64,000 nt of DNA from Bacteroidota bacterium (GTDB taxonomy: Bacteria; Bacteroidota; Bacteroidia; Flavobacteriales_D; Sanyastnellaceae). Each line of letters opens with the position of its first letter. Positions within the stretch are counted from its first letter, which is position 1. The stretch lies in assembly GCA_027621555.1 (NCBI GenBank), contig JAQCBJ010000001.1, positions 1 through 64,000 on the forward strand. The letters are read 5' to 3'. Below are positions 3,508 through 26,331 of this stretch, one piece after another. A program made the translations under genes and the position numbers. Below the pieces are notes generated by a model that searched no databases, had not been told where the DNA came from, and saw nothing but the letters and a program-made list of their open reading frames with translations.

Positions 3508-6500
3508 TCACCTCACCACCGTGACGGTTCCACGCAGGTCCGTCGGAATCAATTCGTGGTAGCCCTGGGCCTCCACGCGCCACCCGTACACCCCATCCGG
3601 CACGAAGTGGGTGCCGAGGCGCTGGTTGTTTTGGCCAATCCACGGCTCCTCCGGATCGTCGGTCTGGAACACCAACTCCCCCCAACGGTTGAAGACGGAG
3701 AAGTGGTAGAGATCGCCCTCAAAGCCTGAACCCAGCGGTTGGAAAGCGTCGTTCACCCCGTCGTTGTCCGGAGTAAACGCATTGGGAACATACAGGTGGA
3801 ACTCCACGGGCTCGAAGTGAGCCGTCACGATTTCCACCGGCACGTCTGCGAGCAACAACGCCATGGGATTGGCTTTTTCCTCAGGCAGCGGTTCTGTCAC
3901 CGCGACTTCCCAATGGCTGAACTGCCACTCCTCTTCCGAGATGGCCTCAAAGACCGTCGGCCCATCCGGCTCAAACGACGTGGACCACACGTCCTCGACC
4001 ATGGCCATGTCCACCACTCGCACTTTGCCCGCTTGTTGGGGCGACACCACCACCGTCAAATCGGTGTGGGGAATCTCCACGAAATGCGCGGTCACTGTGC
4101 CCGGCTCGAACACTTCCAATTGCGCCGGGGAAGCTTCGGCATCCGGCGCGATGACGTTGCCCGTCCACGTCCAATGCGAGAAGGCCCACCATTCGTTGGG
4201 TTCGGCGAGCAAGTTGTGGTTGCCCACGTTGATCAAATCCACGTGGGGGTTGTCCAACAGGGTGACGCCATCCAAGATGACAAACCCGCTCCCTGGAGGC
4301 GACACAGAAAACGACACCTCCTCAGGAGGGACCGGGATTCCAAAGTGCGCGACGAGGTGAACGTCCCCCGTCAAATCCAGTTCAAGCAAGGGATCGTTCA
4401 CGTCCGAAATCGTCACGTCACCGGCCACTACTTCCCAATACAGGAAAGACAGACCGTAGTTCTCCTCCGCCTCCAAAGTGATCGGGACTTCCATGAAATA
4501 CCACCCGGAATAGGGAGTCATGTCAGGCGTGATGTCCAGGCTGTTGATGTGAATGTCGCCTTGGCCAACGATGTCCAGCGTCAGCGTCACGGGGGTCACG
4601 TCGTAGCAATCCTCCATGCCACCGAGCAACTCATCCTGGCAACGAGAATCGATGAAGTCCCGCATCTGCTGGAGCTCCGTTTCCCACCCCGCAACCGTTC
4701 CGCCCCAGCGTTGGCATTGGCGCGGCATCTCAGGCTCGAGGACCAGCACCATGCTGTCCAAGACGGCATTCATGGTCTCGCACGTGAACCACGTGTTGCC
4801 GAGGTCGGCCCAACGGTTGATGTACGTGTTCCAAAACGTCTCGTTGCCAAGCAGAGCATTCAGCACGGGGATGTGCCCCTGTCCACCCACGTTGCCCATC
4901 CCTTCCGGGTTGCATGGGTCCGCCGTCGGCCCCGTGTCCGGAATGCCCGTGTAGTTGATGTAATGCCCAAAACTCGCGTCGTTGTCCCACAACGCGTACC
5001 GCCAACGCTTCGCGTCGCCGTCGGGATGACGCCCACGCCACCATGCCGTGTTCCAGTTCAGCCAGTCCATGGTCACCACGTAGCTGTTCAGCACGAAGTA
5101 ATCGATGAGGGACATGGGGTTCAACTGCGACACCGCGTACTCGTAGTTCGCGGGAACGGTCATGTCTTGCGTCGTACAGAAGGTGACGAGGTCGTACCAA
5201 TCGCCCCCCGTGCCATACTCTTCCCACGTTCCGCCCCACGTCTTCAAGAAGTCGACAAAATGGCGTGGCTGGTCGTAGTACTCCTCCGTAAAGTCGAGGT
5301 CATCCACCTTTTCGCGGTACTCGTACACGCCCCAGTACTGGCCGTTCAGGTACACGATGCAGCTTTCGTTGGTCCGTTCGTCCAAGTGGAGGTCCGCCAA
5401 ATGGCTCAACGTGTGGATGTACGCGTCGCGGATGTGAGCTCCAGGCTCGAACGGGTAATTGTCGTTCGCCGCCGCCTTGAAGATCAAACGCTGGTACTGG
5501 TCGCGCTCCTTGACGTGGAACAACTCCGCTTCAAGCGCATAGTCGTAGCCCATTTGGTCGCGGGTGATGTAGTCAAACCCGCGTTGTCCGTACGCGTTGC
5601 TGTCGTTTCCGTGTTCGTTGCTGTCGCCCGTCGCCTCCACCCAAAACGTGCCGTCTGCATGAAAAAATTCAATGTGCGCCAACTCGCCATTCCCCCATCC
5701 CCATTGTCCATCCTCCTGCCCGTTGCCACTGACTGAAACGACGGGGATGGTGTGGTTGTCCGCTCCGATGAAAAAGGTGTTCGTCTGGATGAAACTAGGA
5801 GCCAGGTTTCCTGTGGGATCAAGAGCCACCGCCCGCACAACGGTGGTCGTGCCCACGTTGAATGGCCCAGTGTAGAGGGGGCTCGCCGCAGTGGGAGTGT
5901 ATCCGTCCAACGTGTAACGGATTTCGTACCCCGCGGGCACAGACAATTCAACCGAAACCGCAGCGTCGTAATGCCCTGCTTCCGCATTGAACGTCGGGGC
6001 CGGAGCGTAGCCATCCACCATGTCCGCGCCGTTGGCGGCCTGTGGAGTCGGGGCAAGGCAGACGCTCCACGTCGCCGCGCCATCTGTGGTTCGGCACCAA
6101 CTGTGGTCGGCTTGGGTGGTGTGCACGTCCGCGCCAAAGGTGTAACTCTCCAGCACGTTCAATCCCGGGTCGCAGAAGACGAGGGACTCGTTTTGGCATT
6201 GGTTGATCTTGAAATTCGTGTTCAAGAAACCACCCACATAAAGGTTGGTAGGCAGCTCGCCTTCGCCAGAGCACATGACCAACAAATGCCCACCCGCCGG
6301 AACAACCGTCCCCGCGGGGATTTCAAACTTGTCCAAGTTGGTCGGCACGTCCGACAAGAAATACCCCCCCAAGTCGACGTCTGCGCCTGTAGGGTTGTAG
6401 AACTCGACAAAGTCCTCGTTGTCCCCTCCCACTCCCAAGGTGTAGTTGCTGCAGGAGAATTCGTTGATCACGACTTGGGCCTGAAGCTCGAGCCCCAAAC

Positions 6501-6555
6501 CCAAGGCCAGGACAGCCGAAGCCCAACGCAAATTCATGTGGTTTCGAAAACTCAT
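3508..6555 (-). CDS. secreted lamin-tail/CotH protein with T9SS type B sorting domain
   Basis: The 1015-residue protein begins with a signal peptide (after MNLRWASAVLALGLG, cut near LQAQ). It then carries a lamin-tail-like domain (about 26-165, starting VVINEFSCSNY) and a chitobiase-type Ig-like segment (about 180-270, with RYTLDGYTPT). A CotH-like kinase domain follows (about 340-640, with WGVYEYREKVDD and the metal-binding type motif ALWDNDASFG). Next are three InlB-B-like beta repeats, and finally a gliding-motility type C terminus (PNAFTPDNDGVNDAF, FNRWGELVF) of the T9SS type B class. It should be exported by T9SS and held on or near the cell surface. CotH of spore formers phosphorylates protein side chains; the bacterial surface targets here are unknown. 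An alternative start is ATG 6537. The lysyl-oxidase-like gene lies just upstream on the same strand. Confidence 0.85.
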   Translation of the reverse strand: MSFRNHMNLRWASAVLALGLGLELQAQVVINEFSCSNYTLGVGGDNEDFVEFYNPTGADVDLGGYFLSDVPTNLDKFEIPAGTVVPAGGHLLVMCSGEGELPTNLYVGGFLNTNFKINQCQNESLVFCDPGLNVLESYTFGADVHTTQADHSWCRTTDGAATWSVCLAPTPQAANGADMVDGYAPAPTFNAEAGHYDAAVSVELSVPAGYEIRYTLDGYTPTAASPLYTGPFNVGTTTVVRAVALDPTGNLAPSFIQTNTFFIGADNHTIPVVSVSGNGQEDGQWGWGNGELAHIEFFHADGTFWVEATGDSNEHGNDSNAYGQRGFDYITRDQMGYDYALEAELFHVKERDQYQRLIFKAAANDNYPFEPGAHIRDAYIHTLSHLADLHLDERTNESCIVYLNGQYWGVYEYREKVDDLDFTEEYYDQPRHFVDFLKTWGGTWEEYGTGGDWYDLVTFCTTQDMTVPANYEYAVSQLNPMSLIDYFVLNSYVVTMDWLNWNTAWWRGRHPDGDAKRWRYALWDNDASFGHYINYTGIPDTGPTADPCNPEGMGNVGGQGHIPVLNALLGNETFWNTYINRWADLGNTWFTCETMNAVLDSMVLVLEPEMPRQCQRWGGTVAGWETELQQMRDFIDSRCQDELLGGMEDCYDVTPVTLTLDIVGQGDIHINSLDITPDMTPYSGWYFMEVPITLEAEENYGLSFLYWEVVAGDVTISDVNDPLLELDLTGDVHLVAHFGIPVPPEEVSFSVSPPGSGFVILDGVTLLDNPHVDLINVGNHNLLAEPNEWWAFSHWTWTGNVIAPDAEASPAQLEVFEPGTVTAHFVEIPHTDLTVVVSPQQAGKVRVVDMAMVEDVWSTSFEPDGPTVFEAISEEEWQFSHWEVAVTEPLPEEKANPMALLLADVPVEIVTAHFEPVEFHLYVPNAFTPDNDGVNDAFQPLGSGFEGDLYHFSVFNRWGELVFQTDDPEEPWIGQNNQRLGTHFVPDGVYGWRVEAQGYHELIPTDLRGTVTVVR

Positions 6556-6567
6556 TCAACGAAGGGA

Positions 6568-8985
6568 TTAACGGACTTCAAATCGGATGACCGCTGTTGC
6601 GGCATCGTTGTTCAACCGAAGAACGTAGCTCCCGGCTCCGAGTACTTCACGTGACAACGTCGTGGAACGCCCTGAAACTTGACGGTTCAACACCACCCGC
6701 CCCTGAATGTCCATGACTTCCATGTCCCAGGTCCCCAACGGGAAGGTCACAGTGCTGAAATCGCCCATCGGGTTGGGCATGACTTGAATGGCCTGCACCG
6801 CCTCCATGGTGATGATGTCGGAGACGCAACCGTCCACAACGGTGTGCAACGTGTTTTCGAAATCGTCGTTGACGACATCGATGACTTCCGCCACGCACAC
6901 TTCGGACGTCGCTTCGGACCAGTACACCCGCAGGAAGGGCACGTATTCAAGGTTCTTGTGGAAGGACGCCCCGTCGTAGCTCAAGCCAATGACCTTGTTG
7001 CCTCCAGGCACGAAAGACGGCACAATGTCGTAACCAATGGGGTCCGCCAACGAAACGGCGTCGCTGATGCTCACTCCAGAGAAATCCAATTCGTATCCCA
7101 CGATGCGGTTGTTGGGGTTCAGCACGTGCACGTCGAAGAAGTTCATGCTCCAATTCACGTCCGCCACCATGAAATGCACGGTGTCGTAGATGTTGATGAT
7201 TTCCTGAACGGGCAAGTTGCACTTGTCGTGGAACCCTGAACTGTCGGGGTGTTCGTGCGCCACGTTGTACCATTGGCACTGCGACATGAGGGCCGCATCG
7301 CTGACGGTGATTTGGCCGTCTTGGTCGATGTCTGTGCATGACGTCGGGGCCAAATCGTTGCCCAAGATGCCTTCTACGTACGCCACGGCATCCGCGTATT
7401 CTTGCGCGTCGTTGTTGTCAAGGTCCCCCACCAAAGCGGTCCCTCCACATTCGCCGTTGCAGTCGGTTTCCCCTATGCCAAAAAGCACGCCGTTGCAATC
7501 GTAGAACGGCTCGCAACCGTCCACTGTCTCCACGGCGAGGGATCCCGATGAGCGGTCCAAGTTGACGCAGACTGCGGCGTGGTTGTTGTCGTACGAGTTT
7601 TCGGCTCGGCCCAGTGCGTCCGGGATGAAGTCGTAGTTCGCGCGGACAATCAAGTAGTACGTGCCGTCTTCCACATCCGTCACGTCAATCCACTGGCAGC
7701 TCAATCCCGCGCCGTAAATGTCACCGCATCCCGCAGAGATGCCCATGTTTCCGCAACCGTATTGGCCCGTTCCTCCCCCACTGCATTCGAGGTCCATGAC
7801 GCAAAAACCGTTCTTGAAGCCGATGGGGATGATTCCTCCGTCAAGCGTGAACAGATCGTACTTCGCGTAGCCTTTGTGGTGCCAGTGGTTGTGGCAATCG
7901 CCCCATTCAAATTGGTTGTTCCCACTTTGTCCAGGAACGCCGATGTAGTAGTCGAGGTCGCCGATGTTTTGGATGTGCGTGGTGAAACGCACCAATTCAC
8001 GGGCACCGTAACCGTTCAAGCAGCCCTCTTCGATGTAGCAATCGGTTTCGTTGACCTGCATCACTTCGGTCGACAAGCTGTTGATGATGGCCTCTTCCAC
8101 CACGACCAAATCGGGTCCCGTGCAATCTGGGTCGCCGGGGTAAACGCACGACCCGTTGTCCACCTCCGCCATGGGGTTGTAGTTGCATGCTTCCGAATCC
8201 GTGCACCCCGTCGGAGGCCCTGCAAACCCAAACTCCCAAGCCCACGTTTCCGTGCATTGACCATCAAAGGAAGCCCAACGGATCCAGTACGTCACGCCGC
8301 CTTCGAGCAACACCGTCAACTGGGCCTCTTCCCCGCAGCCTCCTTGGTTGTCGTCGTAGTAGATGGTCCCTTCGTTGGTGTCGTCGAAGTTGCCCATTTG
8401 GCAGTAGTCGTAGATGTACAGCCGTGTGTCGCATTCGTTGCCGCAAGAGCTGAACGTGTACATGCCGTTGGCCTCAGGAGTGAAGGTGTACCAAAACGAG
8501 TCGGACGGGCTGTCCACCATGCCGTAATCGGCAGAAGTCAGCGGAATCGCGTCGTTGCAGGTTTCTCCTGGAGCACATGCGAAGATGGCCCCTCCCGCGT
8601 TGCCAAAGTCTCCGCCGTTGGCCATGAACTGACCGTCCAGAGTCACGTTGTAGTAGCCGTCACCGTATCCGCAGCAAATGCCGTCGCCGAAGGAGTCAAA
8701 AATCTCGAATTGAATGCACGGTTCTTCTGCCGAAGCAAAGCACAACGTGTCAAGAAACAAGGCCCCTGACTCGGAGTAAGGACCTCCCGACATCACCACT
8801 TCCCCATCCATGATCACTTCCCATGACGTTTCTCCGGGATAGCCGTCCGTCAACAATTCCACAACGAGGGTGCTCTCTCCGTCGCCACATTGGCTCCAGG
8901 CCGATTTTCCAGAGATGCCAAACACCAAGAATGCCAGCGCAACGTGTGCAGCGCGCATCAGGCGGGTTGATTCAACACGGTTCAT
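6568..8985 (-). CDS. secreted lysyl-oxidase-like protein with T9SS type A sorting domain
   Basis: The protein has 805 residues. After a signal peptide it has a beta-rich N-terminal part and one GCTDSEACNYNP repeat (about 260-282). Residues 290-477 closely resemble the catalytic domain of animal lysyl oxidase. The copper ligands CHNHWHH are at 364-370, GFKNGFC holds Lys391, YGAGLSCQWIDVTDV holds Tyr424, and the domain ends in ENSYDNNHAAVCV. Lys and Tyr occupy the positions that form the lysine tyrosylquinone cofactor in LOX. A dockerin-like pair of Asp-rich loops (about 515-580, including CTDIDQDGQITVSD) follows. The last 80 residues, with MPNPMGDFSTVTF, are a T9SS type A sorting domain. Predicted role: copper amine oxidase acting on surface or extracellular proteins. 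Activity is inferred from conserved residues only. Confidence 0.85.
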   Translation of the reverse strand: MNRVESTRLMRAAHVALAFLVFGISGKSAWSQCGDGESTLVVELLTDGYPGETSWEVIMDGEVVMSGGPYSESGALFLDTLCFASAEEPCIQFEIFDSFGDGICCGYGDGYYNVTLDGQFMANGGDFGNAGGAIFACAPGETCNDAIPLTSADYGMVDSPSDSFWYTFTPEANGMYTFSSCGNECDTRLYIYDYCQMGNFDDTNEGTIYYDDNQGGCGEEAQLTVLLEGGVTYWIRWASFDGQCTETWAWEFGFAGPPTGCTDSEACNYNPMAEVDNGSCVYPGDPDCTGPDLVVVEEAIINSLSTEVMQVNETDCYIEEGCLNGYGARELVRFTTHIQNIGDLDYYIGVPGQSGNNQFEWGDCHNHWHHKGYAKYDLFTLDGGIIPIGFKNGFCVMDLECSGGGTGQYGCGNMGISAGCGDIYGAGLSCQWIDVTDVEDGTYYLIVRANYDFIPDALGRAENSYDNNHAAVCVNLDRSSGSLAVETVDGCEPFYDCNGVLFGIGETDCNGECGGTALVGDLDNNDAQEYADAVAYVEGILGNDLAPTSCTDIDQDGQITVSDAALMSQCQWYNVAHEHPDSSGFHDKCNLPVQEIINIYDTVHFMVADVNWSMNFFDVHVLNPNNRIVGYELDFSGVSISDAVSLADPIGYDIVPSFVPGGNKVIGLSYDGASFHKNLEYVPFLRVYWSEATSEVCVAEVIDVVNDDFENTLHTVVDGCVSDIITMEAVQAIQVMPNPMGDFSTVTFPLGTWDMEVMDIQGRVVLNRQVSGRSTTLSREVLGAGSYVLRLNNDAATAVIRFEVR

Positions 8986-9246: not shown

Positions 9247-11400
9247 TTATTCCTCGACTTCCGCGTCGGTTTTCGACACCAACGTCATCTCCTCAACGAG
9301 GTGACCTGCCCCGGCGTACACATCCATGACCCAGAGGACGTAGCGGATGTCCACCATGATGTTTCGACAGCGCGAACCGTCGAACAAGATGTCGCTCATG
9401 GTGCTTTCCCAACTCCGGTCGAAGTTGATCCCCACCAAGTGGCCGTTGGCGTCCAACGCTGGCGAACCTGAATTTCCTCCTGTGGTGTGGTTGCTGCCCG
9501 TGAAGCAAACCACGAGCTCCCCGTCGTCGTTTGCGTAATCCCCGTAATTGCGCGCTTCAAGGAGTTCCACCAAGCGTTCCGGCATGTCAAAATCGGGGTC
9601 GCCTGGCACGTATTTCTGGAGGATGCCGCGTGCTGTGCTGAGCGGGTTGTACTGCATGCCGTCGTACGGCGCACTGCCCTCCACCTTCCCGTACGTGAGA
9701 CGCAACGTGCTGTTCGCGTCGACCGGGAACACCTTCTTAGGAAAGGCCTTGCGAAGCTCCTTGGTGTACGCACCTGACGCCAGCTCAATTTCTTCGCGCA
9801 AACGTCCATACTCAGGCGCAACCTGTTCAAAGTAGCTCGAACGAAGCTTCTCGATCCAAACGTAGGCCGGATCTTTGGCCAACTTCCCCCACGCCTTGGC
9901 GCTCCCTGAAGCCATCAACTTGTCCATCTCATCGGCGTCGTCAAACACGCTTTTGCTGAACACCTTGGCCGCCCAAGCCGTGCCTCCCCCTGCTCTCAAC
10001 ACCTCAGCACGAAGGCCTCCCGGCTCCAATTCCGTGGGCACCCACTTCAGGTATTCGTCCACCAATCGCCCCAACAGCTGCTCGTCCACTTGGGCGTTAA
10101 AGTCCTTTCGGAATCCCGCCTCGTTCGCGCGCAGCTTGGCCAGCAATTGGTCACGCTTTTCACGCTCAACCGCGCCTTCAATCAAGCCCGCAAAACTGTG
10201 AGCGTAGTTGAGGATGTCGGGGCCGTAGTACGCCAATTCGATGAACAACGACCGCGCCTCGAGGTACGGGAAATACTGGGCATTCAGCGCGGCGATGTCT
10301 TCCACCACGGTGCTGCCCGTCGCGTCTTTCAGGCGACGTTCCATGTCGCGCTTTTTGTCCAACGCACGGAGTTCGGTGAGGCCGCGGTTTTGGCCCATCC
10401 ACTTTTTCCAAGCATTGGCCACGCTGCTTTGCTTGGCCGCGTAAGCGATGCGCAACTCGTCGCTCGAGGCCCGAGCTGCGTTGATGACCGCCAATCCTTC
10501 GTCGCGCATGGAAATGCGCATGGGATTGAGGCGGTTGATGACGTGGTCCACCGCGTCGGACGTGAGGTACTGCTCTGTGCGGCCGGGGAAACCAAAGACC
10601 ATGGTGAAATCCCCGTCCTTGACGCCGTCCACGTTCACAGGGAAGTGGTGCGCGGGCGCGTAAGGCTGGTTGTCGGCGCTGTAGTCCGCAGGGTTGTTGT
10701 CGGCGTCCGCGTAGATACGGAACACGCTGAAATCTCCCGTGTGACGAGGCCAAACCCAGTTGTCCGTGTCGCCCCCAAACTTCCCAACTGCCGAAGGAGG
10801 CGCCCCCACGAGGCGCACGTCACGATACACCCGGCTTGTGATGAGGTAGTGGCTGTTTCCGAAGTCAAAGGCCACGACTTGGCCCTCCAGTCCCTTCCCT
10901 TCAGTCGCCTGCTTCACAATGGAGGCCATTTCCTCTTTCATTCGTTGCTCCCTGGCTTCGCCCGAAAGCCCTACGCATGCTCGCGACAACTTCAACGTCA
11001 CGTCTTCAATGCGATCGATGAACGTGCAGGTCAAGCCGGGATTCGCCAACTCTTCGGCACGCGTCATGGCCCAAAACCCGTCGGTCAGCAAGTCGTTGTC
11101 CACGGTGCTGTGCTGTTGGATTTGGCCATAGCCGCAGTGGTGGTTGGTCAAGAGCAAGCCCTCGGAACTCACCATCTCCGCCGTGCATCCGCCGTTGAAA
11201 TGCACCACCGCATCCTTCAAACTGCTGTGGTTGATGCTGTAAATGTCCTCCGCCGTCAGCTTCAGCCCCATCGCTTGCATGTCCCCTTCCACCACTTTAA
11301 GCAGCGTGGGGATCCACATGCCTTCCTTCGCCTGAAGCGCGTTGAGCAGTCCAAACGTCAATACCAGCGCCATCGCGCCCTGTGCAGTCCATGTCTTCAT
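9247..11400 (-). CDS. S46 dipeptidyl-peptidase, DPP11-like (Asp/Glu-specific)
   Basis: The protein has 717 residues, the usual size for S46. It starts with a signal peptide (MKTWTAQGAMALVLTFGLL, cut near LQAKEG). The catalytic His lies in TNHHCGYG (86-91), the conserved block GGDTDNWVWPRHTGDF is near 225, and the nucleophile Ser644 is in GNSGSP. Eighteen residues after this Ser stands Arg662 (NFDRSWES). In DPP11 the equivalent Arg gives preference for acidic P1 residues, whereas DPP7 has Gly there. The enzyme should release N-terminal dipeptides in the periplasm and feed amino-acid uptake. The start at 11400 was chosen because of the signal peptide and the -7 box just upstream; a longer frame has no signal peptide. 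Confidence 0.92.
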   Translation of the reverse strand: MKTWTAQGAMALVLTFGLLNALQAKEGMWIPTLLKVVEGDMQAMGLKLTAEDIYSINHSSLKDAVVHFNGGCTAEMVSSEGLLLTNHHCGYGQIQQHSTVDNDLLTDGFWAMTRAEELANPGLTCTFIDRIEDVTLKLSRACVGLSGEAREQRMKEEMASIVKQATEGKGLEGQVVAFDFGNSHYLITSRVYRDVRLVGAPPSAVGKFGGDTDNWVWPRHTGDFSVFRIYADADNNPADYSADNQPYAPAHHFPVNVDGVKDGDFTMVFGFPGRTEQYLTSDAVDHVINRLNPMRISMRDEGLAVINAARASSDELRIAYAAKQSSVANAWKKWMGQNRGLTELRALDKKRDMERRLKDATGSTVVEDIAALNAQYFPYLEARSLFIELAYYGPDILNYAHSFAGLIEGAVEREKRDQLLAKLRANEAGFRKDFNAQVDEQLLGRLVDEYLKWVPTELEPGGLRAEVLRAGGGTAWAAKVFSKSVFDDADEMDKLMASGSAKAWGKLAKDPAYVWIEKLRSSYFEQVAPEYGRLREEIELASGAYTKELRKAFPKKVFPVDANSTLRLTYGKVEGSAPYDGMQYNPLSTARGILQKYVPGDPDFDMPERLVELLEARNYGDYANDDGELVVCFTGSNHTTGGNSGSPALDANGHLVGINFDRSWESTMSDILFDGSRCRNIMVDIRYVLWVMDVYAGAGHLVEEMTLVSKTDAEVEE

Positions 11401-11404
11401 GCCA

Positions 11405-11442
11405 CCAAGATACCCCACCTGTGCCCGACTCGCGTACTTTCG
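11405..11442. promoter_or_regulatory. divergent promoter pair between peptidase and threonine aldolase genes
   Basis: On the minus strand TATCTTGG (11405-11412) lies four bases before the peptidase ATG. On the plus strand TACTTTCG (11435-11442) lies four bases before the aldolase ATG. Each differs from TAnnTTTG at one position. Only 46 bases separate the two start codons. Confidence 0.55.
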
Positions 11443-11446
11443 CAGC

Positions 11447-12529
11447 ATGGCCAGTTCCTCCTCCGACAGCCAGCTCCAACCGCGCCCCGCGGACCTGCTG
11501 GTCGACCTCCGAAGCGACACCGTCACCGCGCCCACAGCCGCGATGCGCGACGCCATGAATGCCGCGCCTGTGGGCGACGACGTGTTTGGCGAAGACGAGA
11601 GCATCAACGCCCTTCAGGACCGATGCGCGGCACTGACGGGGCACGAGGCTGCGCTGTTTTGTCCTTCCGGAACGATGACCAACCAAATCGCGATTCAGGT
11701 CCACACGCGCCCCGGCGACGAGGTCATCTGCGACCGCCTTTCCCACATCTACAACTACGAGGGCGGCGGCATCGCTCGAAACTCAGGCGCGTCCGTGCGC
11801 CTGCTCCACGGCGACCGCGGCCGGTACCGCCTCGAAGACATGGTGGCGAACGTCAACCCGGCCGACAGCCACTACGCCCGCACTTCCCTCGTCGCGGTCG
11901 AGGACACGTGCAACAAAGGCGGCGGAGCCGTTTGGGACGTCCAGGAGCTCGAGCGCTTGTCGGCCGAGTGCCGCAAGCGCGGTTTGGGCTTCCACCTCGA
12001 CGGCGCCCGGGTCTGGAACGCGTGGGTTCAGCGCGGCGAATGGGGCCATCCCGAGCGACTTCGCGCTTACGGCCAACTCTTTGACAGCATGTCTCTCTGC
12101 CTCAGCAAGGGCCTCGGTTGCCCAGTAGGATCTGTGTTGGTGGGCTCCAAGGAATTCATTGCGGAAGCGCACCGGTCGCGCAAGGTGCTCGGCGGAGGAA
12201 TGCGCCAGGCTGGCGTGTTGGCTGCGGCCGGACTGCACGCCCTGGACCATCATGTGGCCCGACTTGAACAAGACCACAGGCACGCCTCTCTCCTCGGCGA
12301 GGTGCTCGAAGCCCACCCGAACATCGCTGGCGTGGACCCCGTCGAAACGAACATCGTCATTTTCACGTTGCCACGCGACAACTCCGCCGACGTCGTCCAG
12401 GCGTTTGCGCAAATGGGCATCGCGTGTTTTGCGTTCGGACCCGACAAGATTCGACTCGTCACGCACCTCGACATGACCCCTGAGACCATCCACGAGGCGT
12501 GTACCCGCATTCAGCGCTGGCGCGCTTAG
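11447..12529 (+). CDS. low-specificity L-threonine aldolase family enzyme
   Basis: The protein has 360 residues and belongs to PLP fold type I, beta-eliminating lyase/threonine aldolase family. Conserved segments are DLRSDTVTAPT at the N terminus, VGDDVFGED, ALFCPSGTMTNQIA, the His of RLSHIYNYEGGG, FHLDGARVWNA (Asp and Arg binding PLP), and SLCLSKGLGCPVGS with the Schiff-base Lys. It cleaves threonine or allo-threonine to glycine and acetaldehyde, or the equivalent beta-hydroxy amino acids. ATG 11447 was chosen over an upstream in-frame ATG at 11342 because the latter lies inside the divergent peptidase gene and because a -7 box sits just before 11447. Confidence 0.9.
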   Translation: MASSSSDSQLQPRPADLLVDLRSDTVTAPTAAMRDAMNAAPVGDDVFGEDESINALQDRCAALTGHEAALFCPSGTMTNQIAIQVHTRPGDEVICDRLSHIYNYEGGGIARNSGASVRLLHGDRGRYRLEDMVANVNPADSHYARTSLVAVEDTCNKGGGAVWDVQELERLSAECRKRGLGFHLDGARVWNAWVQRGEWGHPERLRAYGQLFDSMSLCLSKGLGCPVGSVLVGSKEFIAEAHRSRKVLGGGMRQAGVLAAAGLHALDHHVARLEQDHRHASLLGEVLEAHPNIAGVDPVETNIVIFTLPRDNSADVVQAFAQMGIACFAFGPDKIRLVTHLDMTPETIHEACTRIQRWRA

Positions 12530-12545: not shown

Positions 12546-14426
12546 TTAACGGCGAACGACCCGAACCCCGCCAGGAATTTCGTCGCAGGTCATCATGTAC
12601 ATCCCCGCAGGCACGTCCAACGTGGCCGTCACGCGATCACCTTGCCGCGTCCAAATGCACGGAACCTCCTTTCCCGACATGTCGCGCACACGAAGCCCTT
12701 GCAGGGATTTGGACAGCGGCCATTCGAGCGAAAGTTCATTCTCGAACGGGTTGGGGTACACGTCCAGCGCTGACACACCTTCCGAGCCCAACACGTCTTC
12801 CAGACCGCTCGCACAATCGTCCAGCGTCAGAATGATCGCGTCGGTGTCTGAACACCCCGCAGCGTCGGAAACCTCCACTCCGACCACCAACGTGCCCGGA
12901 TTTTCTGTCTGAACCACGACTAACGGCCCTGCTTGCCCTGTCGTCCAGGTGTACGACAAGTTGTTCCCCAACGGCGCCAACAACGTGAAGGCGTCGCCTG
13001 CGCACCCAAACAAACCGGGTCCCAAATCCACCTCGGGCACGCCCACGGCGTCCACCCACACCCATTCAGACGTAGAACAACCGTTTTCGTCCACCACATC
13101 AACCTGACATAGGCCACTCGGCAACCCAAAGACCTCGGCCCCGAACGCTTCGAAGGTTCCGATTGACCACGTCGCATCCACCTCACCTTGCCCTCCAACG
13201 ACAACCACCGCTCCGGACATGGCCGCGGAATCGCAATCTGCGGTCAACGTTACCTGAGCCTCAATCGGTGCGGGCTCTTCCACTTCAAACTGCTCCGCAA
13301 AAGATTGGCCGCAAAACGAGGCTGACACGTTGTACACCCCTGGAAGCAGCGGCCCCAACACAGCCTCTGAAGAGGTGAACCCAAAGGGGCCCGTCCACTG
13401 CCAATCCACCGAATTTGGCCCCACGTTGGTGTTCATGTCGATGGCTCCATTCGGGTTGAAGTCGGTCGCCAAACTGCAGCTCAAGTCCTGCACGCTTGCA
13501 GATACCGCCCACTCCTCAGGTGACGTTGAGGTGATGCTCACCTCCACGTCTCCAATCTCGCCATACCACCCATCGATTTGGAGGTAGAACGTCTCCCCCC
13601 CCTCCAAGCATGGTGTCAAAAAGCCACTGCGGTACGCTCCAAATTCACAACCAATGTCGTCGTTGGCGTTGACCAACGCATACGTGCTGAAATCCGCGCA
13701 GTCCTCCACTTCCCACATCGCCAGCTGGGTGTCAAACGACGTTCCCTCATTGCACGTGGTGATGGAATACACCCCCCCTTCTTCTGGCACTTCCCAAATC
13801 AACCACATCGTGCGATTCAGTCCAGATTCGCACCAGCCGCCGTACGTGCCACACCCCAATGCCGGCGGCGACGGCTCATTCGGAGACACCGTGGCCTCCA
13901 CGGTGGAGCCCACCCATGACGGTCCGTCTGCCACAATGCTCTCGGCCAAACATGGCATGTCTCCGGCCAGCAAGGCCGTTTGGAATGTCCAATCGTCCCC
14001 GCTTCCCGAACCACCAAATGCATAGACCTCCATCCCCGCCAACGCAATCGAAAACAGGGACCCGCCGTCGCCGTAACTGTCGCGATGGACCAACACCAAG
14101 CTGTCCTCCTCCGACACGCACAACGTCGGTGAGCTCACCACCACGTTGTTGCCATAGGCATCTCCAGGGAGACCCGGAACATCCTCCCCACACCCCACCT
14201 CGGGATTTCCTCCCCACAACAATGCATCGCCGTCACCGCATTCGGACCCAAGCGCCAAGAGCTCCCAGTACATTTCATAGCCCCATGCGTCTGTGGTGAC
14301 CGTTACGTTGAGCGCCAAGGAGTCTTCAGGACACGGAGACTGCGCCGTTGCATGGGTCACAATCAGCGCCGCAAGTGCACACACTAACGACGTCGGTAGA
14401 GGAAAGGTTGGCTTTGAGCACGTCAT
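12546..14426 (-). CDS. secreted protein with T9SS type A sorting domain, unknown function
   Basis: The protein has 626 residues and a signal peptide (cut near HATAQS). It contains beta-sandwich segments typical of adhesin-like surface proteins, including a DSYGDGGSLFSI stretch also seen in the lysyl-oxidase-like protein (DSFGDGICCGY) and an Ig/PKD-like region. The C terminus (LDVYPNPFENELSLEW, ending GGVRVVRR) is a T9SS type A sorting domain. Cysteines are frequent and probably paired. No catalytic domain was recognised. It is convergent with the threonine aldolase gene and divergent from yaaA. Confidence 0.8.
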   Translation of the reverse strand: MTCSKPTFPLPTSLVCALAALIVTHATAQSPCPEDSLALNVTVTTDAWGYEMYWELLALGSECGDGDALLWGGNPEVGCGEDVPGLPGDAYGNNVVVSSPTLCVSEEDSLVLVHRDSYGDGGSLFSIALAGMEVYAFGGSGSGDDWTFQTALLAGDMPCLAESIVADGPSWVGSTVEATVSPNEPSPPALGCGTYGGWCESGLNRTMWLIWEVPEEGGVYSITTCNEGTSFDTQLAMWEVEDCADFSTYALVNANDDIGCEFGAYRSGFLTPCLEGGETFYLQIDGWYGEIGDVEVSITSTSPEEWAVSASVQDLSCSLATDFNPNGAIDMNTNVGPNSVDWQWTGPFGFTSSEAVLGPLLPGVYNVSASFCGQSFAEQFEVEEPAPIEAQVTLTADCDSAAMSGAVVVVGGQGEVDATWSIGTFEAFGAEVFGLPSGLCQVDVVDENGCSTSEWVWVDAVGVPEVDLGPGLFGCAGDAFTLLAPLGNNLSYTWTTGQAGPLVVVQTENPGTLVVGVEVSDAAGCSDTDAIILTLDDCASGLEDVLGSEGVSALDVYPNPFENELSLEWPLSKSLQGLRVRDMSGKEVPCIWTRQGDRVTATLDVPAGMYMMTCDEIPGGVRVVRR

Positions 14427-14430
14427 GGAG

Positions 14431-14438
14431 GAAAGATA
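14431..14438 (-). promoter_or_regulatory. -7 box TATCTTTC for the T9SS protein gene
   Basis: One mismatch to TAnnTTTG, ending four bases before the ATG at 14426 on the minus strand. This is the same spacing as at other genes in the window. Confidence 0.5.
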
Positions 14439-14464
14439 GAGCCCTTATCCCCAACTTTGCGCCC

Positions 14465-15241
14465 ATGTTGGTCCTGCTTTCTCCTGCCAAAACCCTTTCG
14501 CCCGCACTCCCCACCGTTCCGGAAATTCAAAACAACCTGACCGAGCCCTTGGCCCTTCGTCACGCCACCGCCATCGTCCAACATTTGTCCTCATGGAGTC
14601 TTGCGAAAACCCAAAAGGAGCTGAAGCTCTCTGACACCTTGGCACAGCGCGTCTTTGAATGGCATCAAACCTGGAACCCCGCCTCCCCCTTCGCAGCGGG
14701 CTGGACGTTTCAAGGCGATGCCTTCAAATCCTTGGACCTTCCGTCGTGGAATCTACGCGATGCACAAGAAGCGGCGACAAGGCTGCGCATCTTGCACGGG
14801 GTGTACGGGATCCTTCGCCCTTTGGATCGGTACAGCCCCGTGCGTCTGGAAATGGCGCAAGCGTGGAGCCACGACCCCGGCCATCGCAACCTCGCTGGGT
14901 TTTGGAAAACTCATCTGCCCTCATTGGTGATGACCGAAATGAAGGAGGGCAGGCACAGCCACATCCTCAACCTTTCGAGCGCCGAATACGGAGACGTCGC
15001 CCTGCATGGCCTCTCCCCCAACCTCGTCGTCACGTGCCAATTTCTTGAGGACAAAAACGGGAAACTCAAGAGCATCTCTGCTTTTGCCAAAGCCGCACGT
15101 GGAGCCATGGCCGGGCACGTTTTGCGAAACCGCTTGACGTCACCCAACGACCTCGAAGGGTTCAACGACAAAGGCTATGTCTACGACCCTGAACGGAGTT
15201 CTGTCTCGCTGAAGGTTTTCGTCCGAACTTTGGCCCCATGA
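14465..15241 (+). CDS. yaaA: YaaA (UPF0246/DUF328) peroxide-stress protein
   Basis: The protein has 258 residues, the normal length for the family. It starts MLVLLSPAKTLS, the hallmark N terminus, and has LYGVLRPLD-like (VYGILRPLDRYSP) and NLSSAEYG motifs followed by the conserved end FNDKGYVYD. In Escherichia coli YaaA lowers intracellular iron-driven damage during peroxide stress and binds DNA; the exact chemistry is unknown. The start at 14465 gives the family N terminus; an in-frame ATG at 14348 would lie within the opposing gene. The stop overlaps the ATG of the FKBP gene by four bases (ATGA), so the two are translationally coupled. Confidence 0.93.
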   Translation: MLVLLSPAKTLSPALPTVPEIQNNLTEPLALRHATAIVQHLSSWSLAKTQKELKLSDTLAQRVFEWHQTWNPASPFAAGWTFQGDAFKSLDLPSWNLRDAQEAATRLRILHGVYGILRPLDRYSPVRLEMAQAWSHDPGHRNLAGFWKTHLPSLVMTEMKEGRHSHILNLSSAEYGDVALHGLSPNLVVTCQFLEDKNGKLKSISAFAKAARGAMAGHVLRNRLTSPNDLEGFNDKGYVYDPERSSVSLKVFVRTLAP

Positions 15242-15969
15242 TTCATCAACATTCTCGGATTGCGTCGTTTTTGATGCTGTTGGTTGGAATGGGCTTGTCC
15301 ACAGGATCGTGGGCGCAGCGGTCCAAACGAAACAGCAAAACGACGGAAACCACAACCACCTCTCAAACCCCTACCATGGATTCCTTGTCCTACGCTCTCG
15401 GCGTCTTGTTCGCCACCAATTTGTCCAACGAAGGACTTTCCTCCGTGCACGGGGAATCCCTCAAATCGGGTTTCGAGGCCACCCTCGCCGGCGACGCCAC
15501 GATGACGGCATCCGAAGCCGATGCGTTGGTGCGCACGGAGATGATGCGTTTGAAAGAAGAGAAGTCCAAAGCCACCAAAGCGGAAGGCGAGGCTTTTTTG
15601 GCGGAGAACGGAACACGGGAAGGCATCACCACCACGGCTTCTGGACTCCAATACGAGCATGAAGTGGTTGGATCAGGGGCTTCACCTGACGCCAACGACG
15701 AAGTCACTGTCCACTACCGAGGCACGCTGTTGAACGGCGAGGAATTCGATTCGAGCTACAAGCGTGGCGAACCCATCTCGTTCCCATTGAACGGTGTGAT
15801 TCGAGGCTGGACGGAAGGTCTCCAATTGATGCAGGAGGGCGGAAAGACCAAATTCTACATCCCCCAAGATTTGGCCTACGGGGCTCGACCTGCACCTGGC
15901 GGGGCCATCCCCCCTTACGCCGCCTTGATTTTTGAGGTTGAGCTCATCAAAGTCACCTCCAAAGATTGA
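15238..15969 (+). CDS. FKBP-type peptidyl-prolyl isomerase, exported (FkpA/Mip-like)
   Basis: The 243-residue protein has a signal peptide (SFLMLLVGMGLSTGSWAQ), a helical FKBP N-terminal dimerisation domain starting MDSLSYALGVLFATNL (about 42-130), and a C-terminal FKBP domain. The active-site pattern is VTVHYRGTLLNGEEFDSSY, FPLNGVIRGWTEGLQLM, GAIPPYAALIFEVEL. It should catalyse proline isomerisation or act as a chaperone for proteins in the periplasm. Translational coupling to yaaA is indicated by the four-base overlap. A strong hairpin terminator follows. Confidence 0.92.
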   Translation: MIHQHSRIASFLMLLVGMGLSTGSWAQRSKRNSKTTETTTTSQTPTMDSLSYALGVLFATNLSNEGLSSVHGESLKSGFEATLAGDATMTASEADALVRTEMMRLKEEKSKATKAEGEAFLAENGTREGITTTASGLQYEHEVVGSGASPDANDEVTVHYRGTLLNGEEFDSSYKRGEPISFPLNGVIRGWTEGLQLMQEGGKTKFYIPQDLAYGARPAPGGAIPPYAALIFEVELIKVTSKD

Positions 15970-16003
15970 TGCTGGGAGTATAATTTTTGATAAAATTCTC
16001 GTC

Positions 16004-16036
16004 AAAACCCCAGTGGATTCGTTCGCTGGGGTTTTT
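16004..16036 (+). terminator. intrinsic terminator after the FKBP gene
   Basis: Inverted repeat AAAACCCCAG / CTGGGGTTTTT with a 12-base loop. A T run follows on the plus strand, 34 bases after the FKBP stop codon. Confidence 0.85.
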
Positions 16037-16109
16037 CGTTGGAAAGAGGTGAAACCGAGAAGGAACTCGTCACGTAAGCGGTGGAAAACCCTATCACAAT
16101 TTCCATCCC

Positions 16110-19100
16110 ATGCGAGTTTCACTCTCCGCCCTTCTTCTTCTCTTTTTCACCTTCGCCGCTCTCCCCGCCCTTTCTCAATCTGAGGAAGAGTGCGCTGCAG
16201 AAGCGGTTCACTTTGCCGAAGTCAGCGCCTCGCAATCCTACGCGCGCAACTTTGACGCAGTGCGTGAAGCAGTCCAACGATTGCAATCGCAATCCAACCG
16301 CAATTTGGATGTCTACACCATTCCCGTTGTGGTCCACGTCATTCACCGCGGATCTGCAGTAGGTGTCGAGGAGAACATCAGCGACGAACAGATTTTGTCG
16401 GCCATTGAGGGATTGAACGACGACTTCCGAAAGAAGCCTGGCACCTCTGGAGATGGCGACGGCGTCGACACGTTCATCCAATTTGAAATGGCCAAGCGGA
16501 CCCCAAGCGACGAACCTACCAATGGCATCCTGCGTGTCAACGGAAATTCGATTCCTGGGTTCGCAGAACATGGGATCAGCAACGGCGCCGATGAAGATGC
16601 CGCAGACCAGTCGGCGGTCAAGAGCTTGACCACGTGGTATGGCGACGACTACATCAACATTTTCATCGTTCCAGAAATCAATGGCAACGACGGCGGATGG
16701 GGAGTTCAGGGATTTGCCTTCCTCGGTCCGACTGGGGACGAGCGCGACGGAATCGTTGTTTTGTACAATGCTTTTGGCACGGTCGGTGAATTGAAGCCCG
16801 GTCGAGATCTCAACAAGACCATCACCCACGAAATGGGCCACCACCTCTCGTTGTGGCACACTTTCTCAAACACGTCATCCTGCACGTCTGAAACCAATTG
16901 TGAGAATCAAGGAGATGAGGTGTGTGACACACCCGCGACCTTGCCGAATGACATGGGTTGTGCACTGCCCGTTTGCGAAGGTGCCCAGGTCGAAAACTAC
17001 ATGGACTACACACAAGAGACGTGTCGGAGCATGTTTACTGAGGGCCAGCGAACGCGCATGCGCGGTTGCCTCGAATCGGTACGCTCAAGCTTGTTGGAAA
17101 GCTCTGGAGGCTTGCCCGTTACCGAGCGCGATTTGACGGTTACAGGATTCAGCAATATTGGGGAGTCGACGTGCCTTCCTTCTGTGACTCCAATGGCGGT
17201 GGTCACCAATTTTGGTGTGGCCACGGTTGACGGATTCGAATTGACCACCACCTTGAATGACAACAACGCGTTCAAGACCATTCACCAAGAATCCATCCTC
17301 CCGGGCCAAAGTGTAGAAGTGACGCTTCCTGAATTGGCTTTGGTGGCGGACACCAACACGTTGCACATGGCGGTAACCCTCCTTGGCAACGAAGCAGATG
17401 ATTTTTCAGGCAACGATTCGTACAACCAGAGCTTCGTGGTCACTTCATCCGATTTCTGGACGATGACACTGAATACGGACAATTGGGCCAACGAAATTTC
17501 CTGGCGCATCGAAGACGCCGCCGGTGAGATTTTGATGGATGGTGGCAACTACGAAGTCGGGTCCAACACTTACGTGGAAATGGGTTGCATTCCCGTAGGA
17601 TGCCATACTCTGATCATGGAAGACGACAAAGGCGATGGCATTTGCGCCTTGGACTGGAACGCCGACGGCGTTTGTGACTCTGGCGGAAGCATGGTGTTGA
17701 CCGACGCTGCCGGCAACGAGTTGGTCGTTCTTGACAACACAAACAACAACTACGGTTCCGTGGGAACTTGGGAGGTTTGCGCCAGCGAAGCCTCTTCACT
17801 CGAAGGATGCTCTGACGCCAACGGCAACGGCATCTGCGACGACGCAGAAGTCTCTGGCTGCCAGGACGTTGCAGCTTGCAACTTCACCCCGGGAGCCATT
17901 TCGGACAACGGCTCATGCACCTACGCGGAAACTCACTACGATTGTGATGGCCATTGTCTGGTTGACACAGATGGTGATGGCGTCTGTGATCCCTTAGAGA
18001 TTCCGGGATGCGACGACAGCGGCGCTTGCAACTTCAATGCCTCTGCCACTGACAACAACGGAACCTGCGAATACACGTCATGCGCCGGTTGCACCGACGT
18101 CCTCGGCTGCAACTACGATTCCAGCGCGACGATTTCCAGCGGTTGCGACTACCCTGATACGGGATACGACTGCGACGGAGATTGCTTGAACGACGTCGAC
18201 GGGGACGGCGTGTGCGACGAATTTGAAGTCCCTGGTTGCAACGATGCGGAGGCATGCAACTACGACGTGTTGGCGACGAACGACGACGGCTCATGCGAAC
18301 TCCCGGAAGAATTCTACACGTGCGAGGGCACATGTGTGAGTGACACCGACGGCGACGGCATCTGCGACGAACTGGAAGTGGCCGGCTGCGATGACGACAT
18401 GGCGTGCAATTACAATGCCGAGACAACCGATGCTGCAGACTGTGAGTACCCTGACGACTACGTGGATTGCGATGGCAACTGCGTCAACGACGATGACGGT
18501 GACGGAGTGTGCAACGAATTTGAAATTGGAGGTTGCACCGACCTTGAGGCCTGCAACTTCGAGGCGAGCGCCACGGACAACGACGGAACGTGCGAGTATC
18601 CTGTTGAATTCTATACCTGCGACGGTTGCATACACGACACCGACGGAGACCTCGTCTGCGATGAATTGGAGATCTCCGGTTGCCAAGACATCATCGCAAG
18701 CAATTACAACGCCGAAGCAACAGACCCTCCTGCTGCTGGTCAGGAATGTTCTTACGAGTCTGGGTGCACCATGCCAGACGCTTGCAACTACAGCCCCAAC
18801 GCAACCGTGGCCGACGACGAAAGCTGCTTCTGGGCTGAAGAATACTACGATTGCTATGGCAATTGCAACACAGATGCCGACAACGATGGGGTTTGTGACG
18901 AGCTGGAAATCGGCGGTTGTAACGACATCACGGCATGCAACTACGACGCTGCCGCTACGGACAACGATGGATCGTGCCAGTACACAGAAGAATTCTACAA
19001 CTGCGACGGAACCTGCATCAACGACTCAGACAGTGACGGCATTTGTGACGAGTTGGAGGTTGCTGGCTGCGACGATCTGGAAGCTTGCAACTACGACGCC

Positions 19101-19502
19101 ACAGCTACCGAAAACGACGGTTCATGCGAATTCGCCGAGGAATACTACGACTGCGATGGTGCTTGCTTGAATGACATTGACGGCGATGGAATTTGTGACG
19201 AGGTCGACGACGAGATTGAAGGCGACAACGTGGGTGACTTCGACGTCGTTCCTGCCTTGAACTTGTTCCCCAACCCCATGAGTCCCGAACACAGCATGGT
19301 GTACTTGTCTGGCTTGGACAACGACCAAACCCCCATCCGCGTCTTGGCCTCTGACGGTCGCGTCGCTTGGCAAGGCACGGGCATCGTGACGTCGCCCGGC
19401 GTGGTGGGTTACCCCATTCGAGAATCCATTTCACCAGGCACCTACTTCATCCAAGTAGGAACCTCCACTCCATCCGGAAACATCCCATTGATGGTCTGGT
19501 GA
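16110..19502 (+). CDS. secreted M43 (cytophagalysin-type) metalloprotease with Cys/Asp-rich repeat tail and T9SS type A domain
   Basis: The protein has 1130 residues. A signal peptide (cut near LPALSQS) precedes an M43 zinc metallopeptidase domain (about 65-335). The zinc motif HEMGHHLSLWH is at 240-250 and the Met-turn NYMDYTQ is at about 296-302. A CARDB-like beta domain (about 340-450) and a jelly-roll segment (about 455-560) follow. Residues of about 565-1035 are eight long units of about 50-70 residues built on GCNDxxACNYxxxATDNDGSC and DTDGDGICDELEV, rich in Cys and Asp. The last 80 residues (LFPNPMSPEHSMVYL) are a T9SS type A sorting domain. It should be a surface-bound or released protease; the repeat tail probably binds calcium. 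Confidence 0.9.
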   Translation: MRVSLSALLLLFFTFAALPALSQSEEECAAEAVHFAEVSASQSYARNFDAVREAVQRLQSQSNRNLDVYTIPVVVHVIHRGSAVGVEENISDEQILSAIEGLNDDFRKKPGTSGDGDGVDTFIQFEMAKRTPSDEPTNGILRVNGNSIPGFAEHGISNGADEDAADQSAVKSLTTWYGDDYINIFIVPEINGNDGGWGVQGFAFLGPTGDERDGIVVLYNAFGTVGELKPGRDLNKTITHEMGHHLSLWHTFSNTSSCTSETNCENQGDEVCDTPATLPNDMGCALPVCEGAQVENYMDYTQETCRSMFTEGQRTRMRGCLESVRSSLLESSGGLPVTERDLTVTGFSNIGESTCLPSVTPMAVVTNFGVATVDGFELTTTLNDNNAFKTIHQESILPGQSVEVTLPELALVADTNTLHMAVTLLGNEADDFSGNDSYNQSFVVTSSDFWTMTLNTDNWANEISWRIEDAAGEILMDGGNYEVGSNTYVEMGCIPVGCHTLIMEDDKGDGICALDWNADGVCDSGGSMVLTDAAGNELVVLDNTNNNYGSVGTWEVCASEASSLEGCSDANGNGICDDAEVSGCQDVAACNFTPGAISDNGSCTYAETHYDCDGHCLVDTDGDGVCDPLEIPGCDDSGACNFNASATDNNGTCEYTSCAGCTDVLGCNYDSSATISSGCDYPDTGYDCDGDCLNDVDGDGVCDEFEVPGCNDAEACNYDVLATNDDGSCELPEEFYTCEGTCVSDTDGDGICDELEVAGCDDDMACNYNAETTDAADCEYPDDYVDCDGNCVNDDDGDGVCNEFEIGGCTDLEACNFEASATDNDGTCEYPVEFYTCDGCIHDTDGDLVCDELEISGCQDIIASNYNAEATDPPAAGQECSYESGCTMPDACNYSPNATVADDESCFWAEEYYDCYGNCNTDADNDGVCDELEIGGCNDITACNYDAAATDNDGSCQYTEEFYNCDGTCINDSDSDGICDELEVAGCDDLEACNYDATATENDGSCEFAEEYYDCDGACLNDIDGDGICDEVDDEIEGDNVGDFDVVPALNLFPNPMSPEHSMVYLSGLDNDQTPIRVLASDGRVAWQGTGIVTSPGVVGYPIRESISPGTYFIQVGTSTPSGNIPLMVW
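17800..19215 (+). repeat. coding repeat array of Cys/Asp-rich EF-hand-like units in the M43 protease
   Basis: Eight degenerate protein-level units each combine a GC-D-ACNY-A-DNGSC block and a YDCDGxC-DxDGDGxCDE block. Units differ in length (about 150-210 bases) and at the DNA level, so the array is old. Each unit has four to six cysteines and a thrombospondin type 3-like DxDGDGxxD calcium loop. Confidence 0.8.
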
Positions 19503-19536: not shown

Positions 19537-19567
19537 ACGGCCTGCGCTTCGTGCGCGGGCCGTTTTT
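19537..19567 (+). terminator. intrinsic terminator after the M43 protease gene
   Basis: GC-rich hairpin ACGGCCTGCGC-TTCG-TGCGCGGGCCGT followed by TTTTT, 35 bases after the stop codon. Confidence 0.85.
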
Positions 19568-19610
19568 CGTTTGTCCCGATTTCCCCATTTTTGCCCAAAC
19601 CTGCCTTACG

Positions 19611-20921
19611 ATGATGACCCCTCTCCTCTCCTCCTTGTTCCTGAGCGCTTTCCCCATCGCCAACGACGCGGTCGTCTTGGGGCTGCTCGCAGGGGCTCTC
19701 GGCCTCGTTTTCTACACGCACTCGCTGCCGCAATTCAAGAAGTTCTACACCTTCGTCCCTGCGCTGCTGATGTGCTATTTCATTCCGGCAGCCTTGAATT
19801 CAGTGGGCATTGTGAACGGAGAAGAAAGCAACTTGTACTTCGTGGCCTCGAGGTATTTGCTGCCAGCGAGCCTCATTTTGCTGTGCCTGTCCATCGATCT
19901 CAAGGGCATTTACAACTTAGGGCCCAAAGCCATCATCATGTTCTTCGCCGCCACCCTCGGAATCATCGTGGGCGGCCCCCTGGCTCTTTGGGTGGTGGGG
20001 CAATCGGACCCCTCAGTTCTCGGCGGAGATGCCCCTGATGCCTATTGGCGAGGGCTTTCAACCGTAGCCGGAAGTTGGATTGGTGGAGGGGCCAACCAGG
20101 CCGCCCTCAAAGAAATCTCGGACACCCTGGACAGCCAATTCAGCATCATGCTGATTGTCGATGTGTTTGTGGCCAACCTGTGGATGCCGTTCTTGTTGTT
20201 TGGTGCTGGCATTCGTGAAAAGATTGACGGTTGGTTGAACGCGGATGCCTCTGCAGTCAACGAGTTGCAAGACAAGGTCGAAAAGCTCCAGGCTGAAACT
20301 GCCCGAATCGCCAGCTTTCCGGATTGGATGGTCATCGTCGCCTTGGCTTTTGGCGGGGTTGCCCTTTCCCATGTCGTCGCCGACAACGCCTCCGTCGCGC
20401 TCTCCGACTGGCTCTCCGCAACGCTTTCGTCCAACCCTGACTCCCCTGCCATCTACCTATCGTCGGTCACCAAGGGATTCTTTTGGCTTGTCGTGACGGC
20501 CACAGCCATTGGCATCGCCCTCAGCTTCACCAAAGCGAAATCCTACGAAGGCGCGGGTGCGAGCAAAATGGGCTCCGTGTTCCTCTACATTCTCGTGGCG
20601 ACCATCGGAATGAAGATGGACATCGGGAGTTTGATTGAAAACTGGTCCATGTACGGCTCTGCAGTGTCCATCGGACTCTTGTGGATGCTGGTCCACATCG
20701 TGGTTCTTCTCGTGGTGGCCAAACTCATCAAGGCCCCCTTCTTCTTCGTCGCCGTTGGCTCCCAGGCCAACGTCGGTGGTGCTGCGTCGGCGCCTATCGT
20801 AGCTAGTGCCTTCTCGCCGGCTCTTGCTCCGGTGGGCGTGCTCCTCGCCGTTCTTGGCTACGCCGTAGGAACCATCGGCGCCATCGTTTGCATGGAATGG
20901 ATGCACCTGCTTTCGGTGTAA
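19611..20921 (+). CDS. DUF819 family integral membrane protein
   Basis: The protein has 436 residues with about 10-12 membrane helices. Family features include FYTFVPALLMCYFIPA and YLLPASLILLCLSIDL near the N terminus, SWIGGGANQAALKEI near residue 160, and VGSQANVGGAASAPIVA followed by PVGVLLAVLGYAVG near the C terminus. DUF819 members resemble transporters of the sodium/anion type with internal repeats, but no substrate is established. ATG 19611 is immediately followed by a second ATG (19614) that could serve instead. It stands between terminators and the convergent gene at 20971, so it is probably monocistronic. Confidence 0.88.
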   Translation: MMTPLLSSLFLSAFPIANDAVVLGLLAGALGLVFYTHSLPQFKKFYTFVPALLMCYFIPAALNSVGIVNGEESNLYFVASRYLLPASLILLCLSIDLKGIYNLGPKAIIMFFAATLGIIVGGPLALWVVGQSDPSVLGGDAPDAYWRGLSTVAGSWIGGGANQAALKEISDTLDSQFSIMLIVDVFVANLWMPFLLFGAGIREKIDGWLNADASAVNELQDKVEKLQAETARIASFPDWMVIVALAFGGVALSHVVADNASVALSDWLSATLSSNPDSPAIYLSSVTKGFFWLVVTATAIGIALSFTKAKSYEGAGASKMGSVFLYILVATIGMKMDIGSLIENWSMYGSAVSIGLLWMLVHIVVLLVVAKLIKAPFFFVAVGSQANVGGAASAPIVASAFSPALAPVGVLLAVLGYAVGTIGAIVCMEWMHLLSV

Positions 20922-26231: not shown

Positions 26232-26323
26232 GTGAGAAAGAAAAAGGGCTTTGAAATGGCTAGAGAGCATCACCCTGAATTTCGATGAGCTCCCAAAATC
26301 ACCGGATGAGGACGCATTTTCCT

Positions 26324-26331
26324 CAAATGTA
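26324..26331 (-). promoter_or_regulatory. possible -7 box TACATTTG for the CBM-like protein gene
   Basis: Exact TAnnTTTG match 92 bases upstream of the ATG on the minus strand, in an AT-rich stretch. This would give a normal 5' leader of about 85-90 bases, unlike the leaderless pattern elsewhere. Confidence 0.4.

Follow-up and report, generated by a model that had tools for sequence, protein, structure and literature searches.

A multi-module type IX secretion cargo protein with a conserved lysyl oxidase domain in an uncultured flavobacterial family

The gene at positions 6568-8985 of the window, the whole 64,000-nucleotide stretch of Bacteroidota DNA analysed here, encodes a protein with a true catalytic domain of the lysyl oxidase (LOX) family. 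Judged from its sequence, the encoded protein is probably an active lysyl oxidase with copper and lysine tyrosylquinone (LTQ), carried out of the cell by the Sec pathway and then by the type IX secretion system (T9SS), and either held on the cell surface or released from it. A marine flavobacterium would in that case possess a copper enzyme of the type by which animals harden collagen, packaged for display on the cell exterior. The coordinates of the gene, its modules and its conserved neighbours are collected in Table 1.

Table 1. Features of the LOX gene and its neighbourhood (window positions; aa, residues of the LOX protein)
Feature	Position	Strand	Evidence
Lysyl-oxidase-domain T9SS cargo gene, 805 aa	6568-8985	-	ORF; PF01186 E=6.5e-32; TIGR04183 above cut-off
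Signal peptide-like N-terminus, aa 1-31	8893-8985	-	Read directly: hydrophobic stretch then AWS-Q; putative cleavage site
N-terminal beta domain, aa 33-137	8575-8889	-	Profile in 92/103 relatives; high-confidence model
PPC / ColG collagen-binding-domain-like jelly roll, aa 138-258	8212-8574	-	Structure match; in 99/103 relatives
GCTDxxACNYNPxA..DNGSC repeat, aa 259-287	8125-8211	-	Profile in 102/103 relatives and other window proteins
Lysyl oxidase catalytic domain, aa 288-492 (Pfam match 291-477)	7510-8124	-	PF01186, LOXL2 alignment, model
Copper-ligand motif H365-N-H367-W-H369	7879-7893	-	Invariant in 103/103 relatives and LOXL2
K391, LTQ lysine (LOXL2 K653)	7813-7815	-	Invariant
Y424, LTQ tyrosine (LOXL2 Y689)	7714-7716	-	Invariant save one sequence truncated before Y424
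Cys-rich linker DCxG...DCNGECGG, aa 493-516	7438-7509	-	Profile in 102/103 relatives
Dockerin-like segment, aa 517-590	7216-7437	-	Dockerin_1 E=0.04, below cut-off; in 101/103 relatives
Cohesin-fold beta sandwich, aa 591-726	6808-7215	-	Cohesin structure matches; in 101/103 relatives
T9SS type A C-terminal sorting domain, aa 727-805	6571-6807	-	TIGR04183; CTD fold
CotH-kinase-domain T9SS type B cargo	3508-6555	-	PF08757 E=2.4e-28, CHU_C, LTD; 12 bp downstream of LOX
S46 dipeptidyl-peptidase-like gene, upstream, conserved neighbour	9247-11607	-	PF10459 E=4e-208; synteny
Cys-rich T9SS type A cargo, conserved in same neighbourhood	12546-14426	-	TIGR04183 at cut-off; synteny

An earlier note, made from the letters of this DNA, had read the domain as lysyl-oxidase-like and suggested a search with the family profile. 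This search gave a decisive match, with PF01186 scoring 111.3 bits against a Pfam cut-off of 20.4. Among all PDB sequences, phmmer found human LOXL2 (5ZE3) as the sole match (E=6.7e-25), and its alignment pairs H365, H367 and H369 with LOXL2 H626, H628 and H630, K391 with K653 and Y424 with Y689, the copper histidines and the cofactor-forming pair of that enzyme (PMC10532419). K391 lies within GFKNGFC (389-395) and Y424 within GCGDIYG. The positions given in the note (CHNHWHH 364-370, K391, Y424 and CQWIDVTDV 430-438) are exact, and its equation of these residues with the copper ligands and LTQ pair of animal LOX is borne out both by the alignment and by their invariance in relatives.

The fold agrees with this assignment. 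When the domain was folded alone (pTM 0.74, pLDDT 70.7), the model matched LOXL2 5ze3 with Z 15.0 (rmsd 3.5, 191 aligned residues, 27% identity), the next chain reaching Z 6.4. In the full-length model, which is of modest confidence (pLDDT 62.5), residues 262-495 match LOXL2 at Z 11.6. The catalytic loop bearing Y424 is modelled with low confidence (pLDDT <50). The Lys-Tyr distance, which the note had proposed as a check, is a poor criterion, since the pair lies 16.6 A apart in the LOXL2 precursor crystal itself (5ZE3; PMC9659206). The domain has ten cysteines that hardly vary among relatives (C316, C322, C364, C395, C401, C411, C420, C430, C473 and C491) and may pair as disulfides. Where animal LOX has a fourth histidine (H289 of the human enzyme), the window protein has a glycine; this histidine is as a rule absent from bacterial LOX and is reported to be dispensable for activity (PMC4448552). 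The window protein and human LOXL2 share the fold, three copper histidines, the LTQ lysine and tyrosine, the cysteine pattern and the CQWxDxTDV motif, at 39% identity over the aligned part. They differ in that the window protein lacks SRCR domains and the fourth histidine, and in that its LOX domain is embedded among PPC, dockerin-like, cohesin-like and T9SS modules.

Conservation was analysed in 103 distinct LOX domains gathered from related bacterial genomes, with pairwise identities down to 31% (median 55%). None of them departs from H365, H367, H369 or K391, and Y424 is kept in all but the truncated sequence. Over the whole protein, which has seven lysines in all, K391 is the only one kept in 108 of 108 homologues. 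Within the genus and its near relatives, dN was lowest in the LOX domain in five of seven comparisons (the dockerin or cohesin part being lower in the other two), and the T9SS tail was the fastest-evolving part. On these alignments, the conservation of the active-site residues is far from chance. We also considered a catalytically dead LOX fold that serves as a structural module, as the structural look of the flanking modules might suggest. This is very improbable, given that the HxHxH motif, lysine and tyrosine are fully conserved among such divergent relatives and that a single lysine has been conserved in a lysine-poor protein.

Extracellular amine oxidation by copper and quinone is well supported, as far as sequence comparison can tell, by the conserved residues and by the demonstrated activity of an archaeal LOX that has the same ones: the recombinant protein oxidizes a broad set of amines, depends on copper and is sensitive to BAPN (PMC6452851). 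The three histidines would bind copper, and copper and oxygen would turn Y424 and K391 into the LTQ cofactor. Primary amines, namely peptidyl-lysine and possibly small amines, would then be converted to aldehydes, hydrogen peroxide and ammonia. The archaeal enzyme (HTU-LOX of Haloterrigena turkmenica) was compared through its published description, in which it has the same His/Lys/Tyr set but is not described as a multidomain T9SS protein (PMC6452851).

Export through T9SS, read earlier from the C-terminal tail, is supported by three lines of evidence. The tail matches the NCBIfam T9SS type A sorting domain (TIGR04183) with 29 bits against a cut-off of 23, and lies slightly below the Pfam cut-off (24.6 versus 27). 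The model of residues 727-805 adopts the T9SS CTD fold of PorZ and mirolase (Z ~11). Finally, the genome encodes the translocon protein SprA (1776 bits) and 55 type A tails, which makes T9SS export of the LOX protein credible.

The modules between the signal peptide and the tail form a recurrent architecture. Profiles derived from the window protein showed these parts to occur together in nearly all relatives: the jelly roll was found in 99 of the 103, the GCTDxxACNY repeat in 102, LOX in 103, the Cys-rich linker in 102, and the dockerin-like and cohesin-like parts in 101 each; several of the exceptions are proteins truncated at contig ends. The middle of the architecture is constant in 101 of 103 relatives. 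The C-terminus is less uniform: the tail profile made from the window protein matches 63 of 103, and other members have other T9SS tails. At L014:5887-8259(+), a LOX protein of the B type, a dockerin-like repeat pair lacking any Pfam match replaces the T9SS tail at the end. The N-terminal beta domain resembles a domain of the T9SS protein at 12546-14426, and two further window proteins, 27946-30132(-) and 16110-19502(+), are rich in the type of GCTDxxACNY repeat that precedes the LOX domain.

Residues 138-254 were modelled as a ColG collagen-binding/PPC fold (Z 11.2 to 5iku and 10.9 to 2o8o, ~12% identity), a likeness to the collagen-binding domain that is to be read as similarity of modelled fold only. 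Residues 597-727 match many cohesins at Z 10-11 and 7-16% identity; the domain has no Pfam match by sequence, and its assignment as cohesin is one of fold only. The dockerin-like segment of the earlier note recurs in the relatives, as counted above, but Dockerin_1 matches it below the cut-off (E=0.04-0.16, best 14.5 bits versus 22.9; E=0.0057 in the related protein L125), so that it can be called dockerin-like only. As for the architecture as a whole, the note had recognized the LOX domain, the dockerin-like segment and the T9SS tail, and had overlooked the cohesin fold and the CotH partner gene. Most likely, the PPC-like, dockerin-like and cohesin-like modules would place the catalytic domain on a surface or target. 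In some genera the LOX protein is much bigger, reaching 2246 aa, and contains PKD, HYR and 9-17 MopE 'metal-binding' repeats. Two such paralogues are L077:2138-8395(-), with 2086 aa and 9 Cu-binding_MopE repeats, and L078:1708-8445(+), with 2246 aa and 17 of these repeats; both also have PKD domains, and in them the copper enzyme is fused to putative metal-binding repeats.

The neighbourhood of the gene recurs across genera, with rearrangements, in the order T9SS cargo, threonine aldolase-like, S46 peptidase, LOX, CotH, and then EamA, aminotransferase IV and sulfotransferase (the threonine aldolase, EamA, aminotransferase and sulfotransferase names were assigned by reading the sequence, without Pfam). 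Across about 25 other loci, most gaps between LOX and CotH fall between about -4 and +30 bp, some of them being ATGA-type overlaps, and the gap reaches 180 bp in L085. Such short or overlapping gaps imply co-transcription, perhaps with coupled translation, and the two genes likely belong to the same operon. CotH does not adjoin LOX in one genus-level group, nor does it stand beside second LOX copies, and is therefore not obligatory. The CotH protein of the window also carries CHB_HEX_C, and several lysines in or near its kinase region are invariant in 24 sequences; a phmmer search of the PDB sequences found no CotH structure. The CotH kinase family elsewhere modifies spore coat proteins. One could speculate that the LOX and CotH operon modifies a single extracellular target in two ways, by oxidizing its lysines and by phosphorylating it. 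This would be a bacterial analogue of the animal pair of lysyl oxidase and FAM20-type secreted kinase that evolved in an uncultured marine flavobacterial lineage; we regard it as improbable.

What prokaryotic lysyl oxidase does in its native setting is still debated in the literature (PMC4448552, PMC6452851), and own-matrix, nutrient and adhesion or antagonism purposes are all compatible with the same LOX chemistry. The enzyme might use lysine aldehydes to cross-link surface or matrix proteins of the bacterium itself, in the manner of animal LOX acting on collagen. The surface export signal, the conserved adjacency to the CotH kinase and the matrix- or adhesin-looking character of the huge modular paralogues in related genera agree with such a role. 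The candidate substrates, however, do not: lysine has a median of 1.0% among 40 T9SS cargo proteins of the genome (L139-L178), none of which is lysine-rich, and collagen-like genes do not track LOX (PF01391 in 9 of 29 genomes with LOX and 3 of 12 without; Fisher p = 1.0). No collagen-like PF01391 protein exceeded the cut-off in genomes of the own genus. A collagen-like substrate was rejected on these counts, as was the conserved neighbouring T9SS protein (12546-14426), which has no conserved lysine. We consider the own-matrix role unlikely; self cross-linking is lowered only, since one exposed lysine per protein would suffice. Hence, of the 'cross-linking or amine oxidation' proposed earlier, amine oxidation is supported by sequence, and cross-linking is possible but finds no support in the lysine-poor cargo or the unassociated collagen-like genes. 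Some of the T9SS cargo proteins of this genome are very cysteine-rich (up to 10%).

Given so little lysine in the cell's own T9SS proteins, foreign protein or amines, as from particles, algae or dissolved organic nitrogen, are likelier substrates than the bacterium's own cargo. Extracellular deamination of peptidyl-lysine or dissolved amines may free ammonium for uptake. HTU-LOX acts on a broad range of amines, for which its authors suggest a role in nitrogen supply (PMC6452851), and an S46 dipeptidyl-peptidase-like gene is a conserved neighbour. On the other hand, the elaborate modules kept in 101 of 103 relatives exceed the needs of a scavenging amine oxidase, and the conserved neighbourhood contains neither an aldehyde-handling gene nor an obvious ammonium transporter; a nutrient role is possible, though we would not favour it. 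Alternatively, aldehydes formed on foreign protein could give the cell a covalent hold on particles or algae, or hydrogen peroxide could harm competitors. The ColG-like fold and the cohesin- and dockerin-like modules flanking the catalytic domain would suit these uses, and the lysine-poor surface proteins of the cell itself would be spared. Yet the PPC and cohesin folds are of a generic kind, matched here at 7-16% identity, and the lysine content of T9SS cargo varies among lineages with no obvious relation to LOX, which leaves adhesion or antagonism a tentative proposal. Lysine depletion was also considered as a possible self-protection; cargo lysine in LOX-lacking genomes varies and overlaps.

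LOX was found in 10 of 10 other genomes of the genus, 89 of 103 others of the family and 20 of 87 in the rest of the order, giving 99 of 113 genomes for this uncultured Flavobacteriales family. A phylum-wide draw contained four matches among 392 genomes (~1%), of which one is the genome of the window itself, another belongs to the same family, and the remaining two have weak, divergent domains. The family tree has at least three paralogous LOX clades; its rooting is uncertain, as both outgroup rows sit on very long branches. A search for a phage origin of the gene found no match. LOX is most simply read as an inherited trait of the lineage and not as a recent stray gene.

Bacterial LOX, including that of Bacteroidetes, is already published (Grau-Bove et al. 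2015, PMC4448552). Those proteins share with ours the family and the absence of the first histidine, but all except three prokaryotic LOX in that work are simple LOX-only proteins, unlike the constant modular architecture described here. Other Bacteroidota families have divergent LOX (L072, L073) in which HxHxH, Lys and Tyr motifs are readable; these differ in scoring 37-40 bits, in missing most cysteines and in carrying LOX alone or with a P-domain. Among the papers searched, none linked bacterial LOX to cohesin/dockerin or T9SS, and the constant multi-module architecture, the near-universality in one family and the operon-like CotH link were likewise not found in them. In the family studied here LOX comes close to being a core trait; its surface architecture of several modules is fixed, and many members also have a fixed partner gene, so that a lineage and a defined construct are now at hand for testing the role of bacterial LOX.

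Several minor observations were made along the way. Two LOX genes of different clades, L125:5072-7516(+) and 13973-17146(-), lie ~6.5 kb apart on opposite strands, and match positions suggest the same layout in G019, G038, G048, G057, G064, G070 and G085, of the same genus. A record titled 'Euryarchaeota archaeon SP189' (L009, L016) contains two typical Flavobacteriales LOX loci, and its title is probably wrong. Elsewhere in the window, 23175-26387(-) encodes a secreted-looking protein of 1070 aa with CBM48/CBM20 starch-binding-type modules, and 19551-20921(+) a DUF819 membrane protein.
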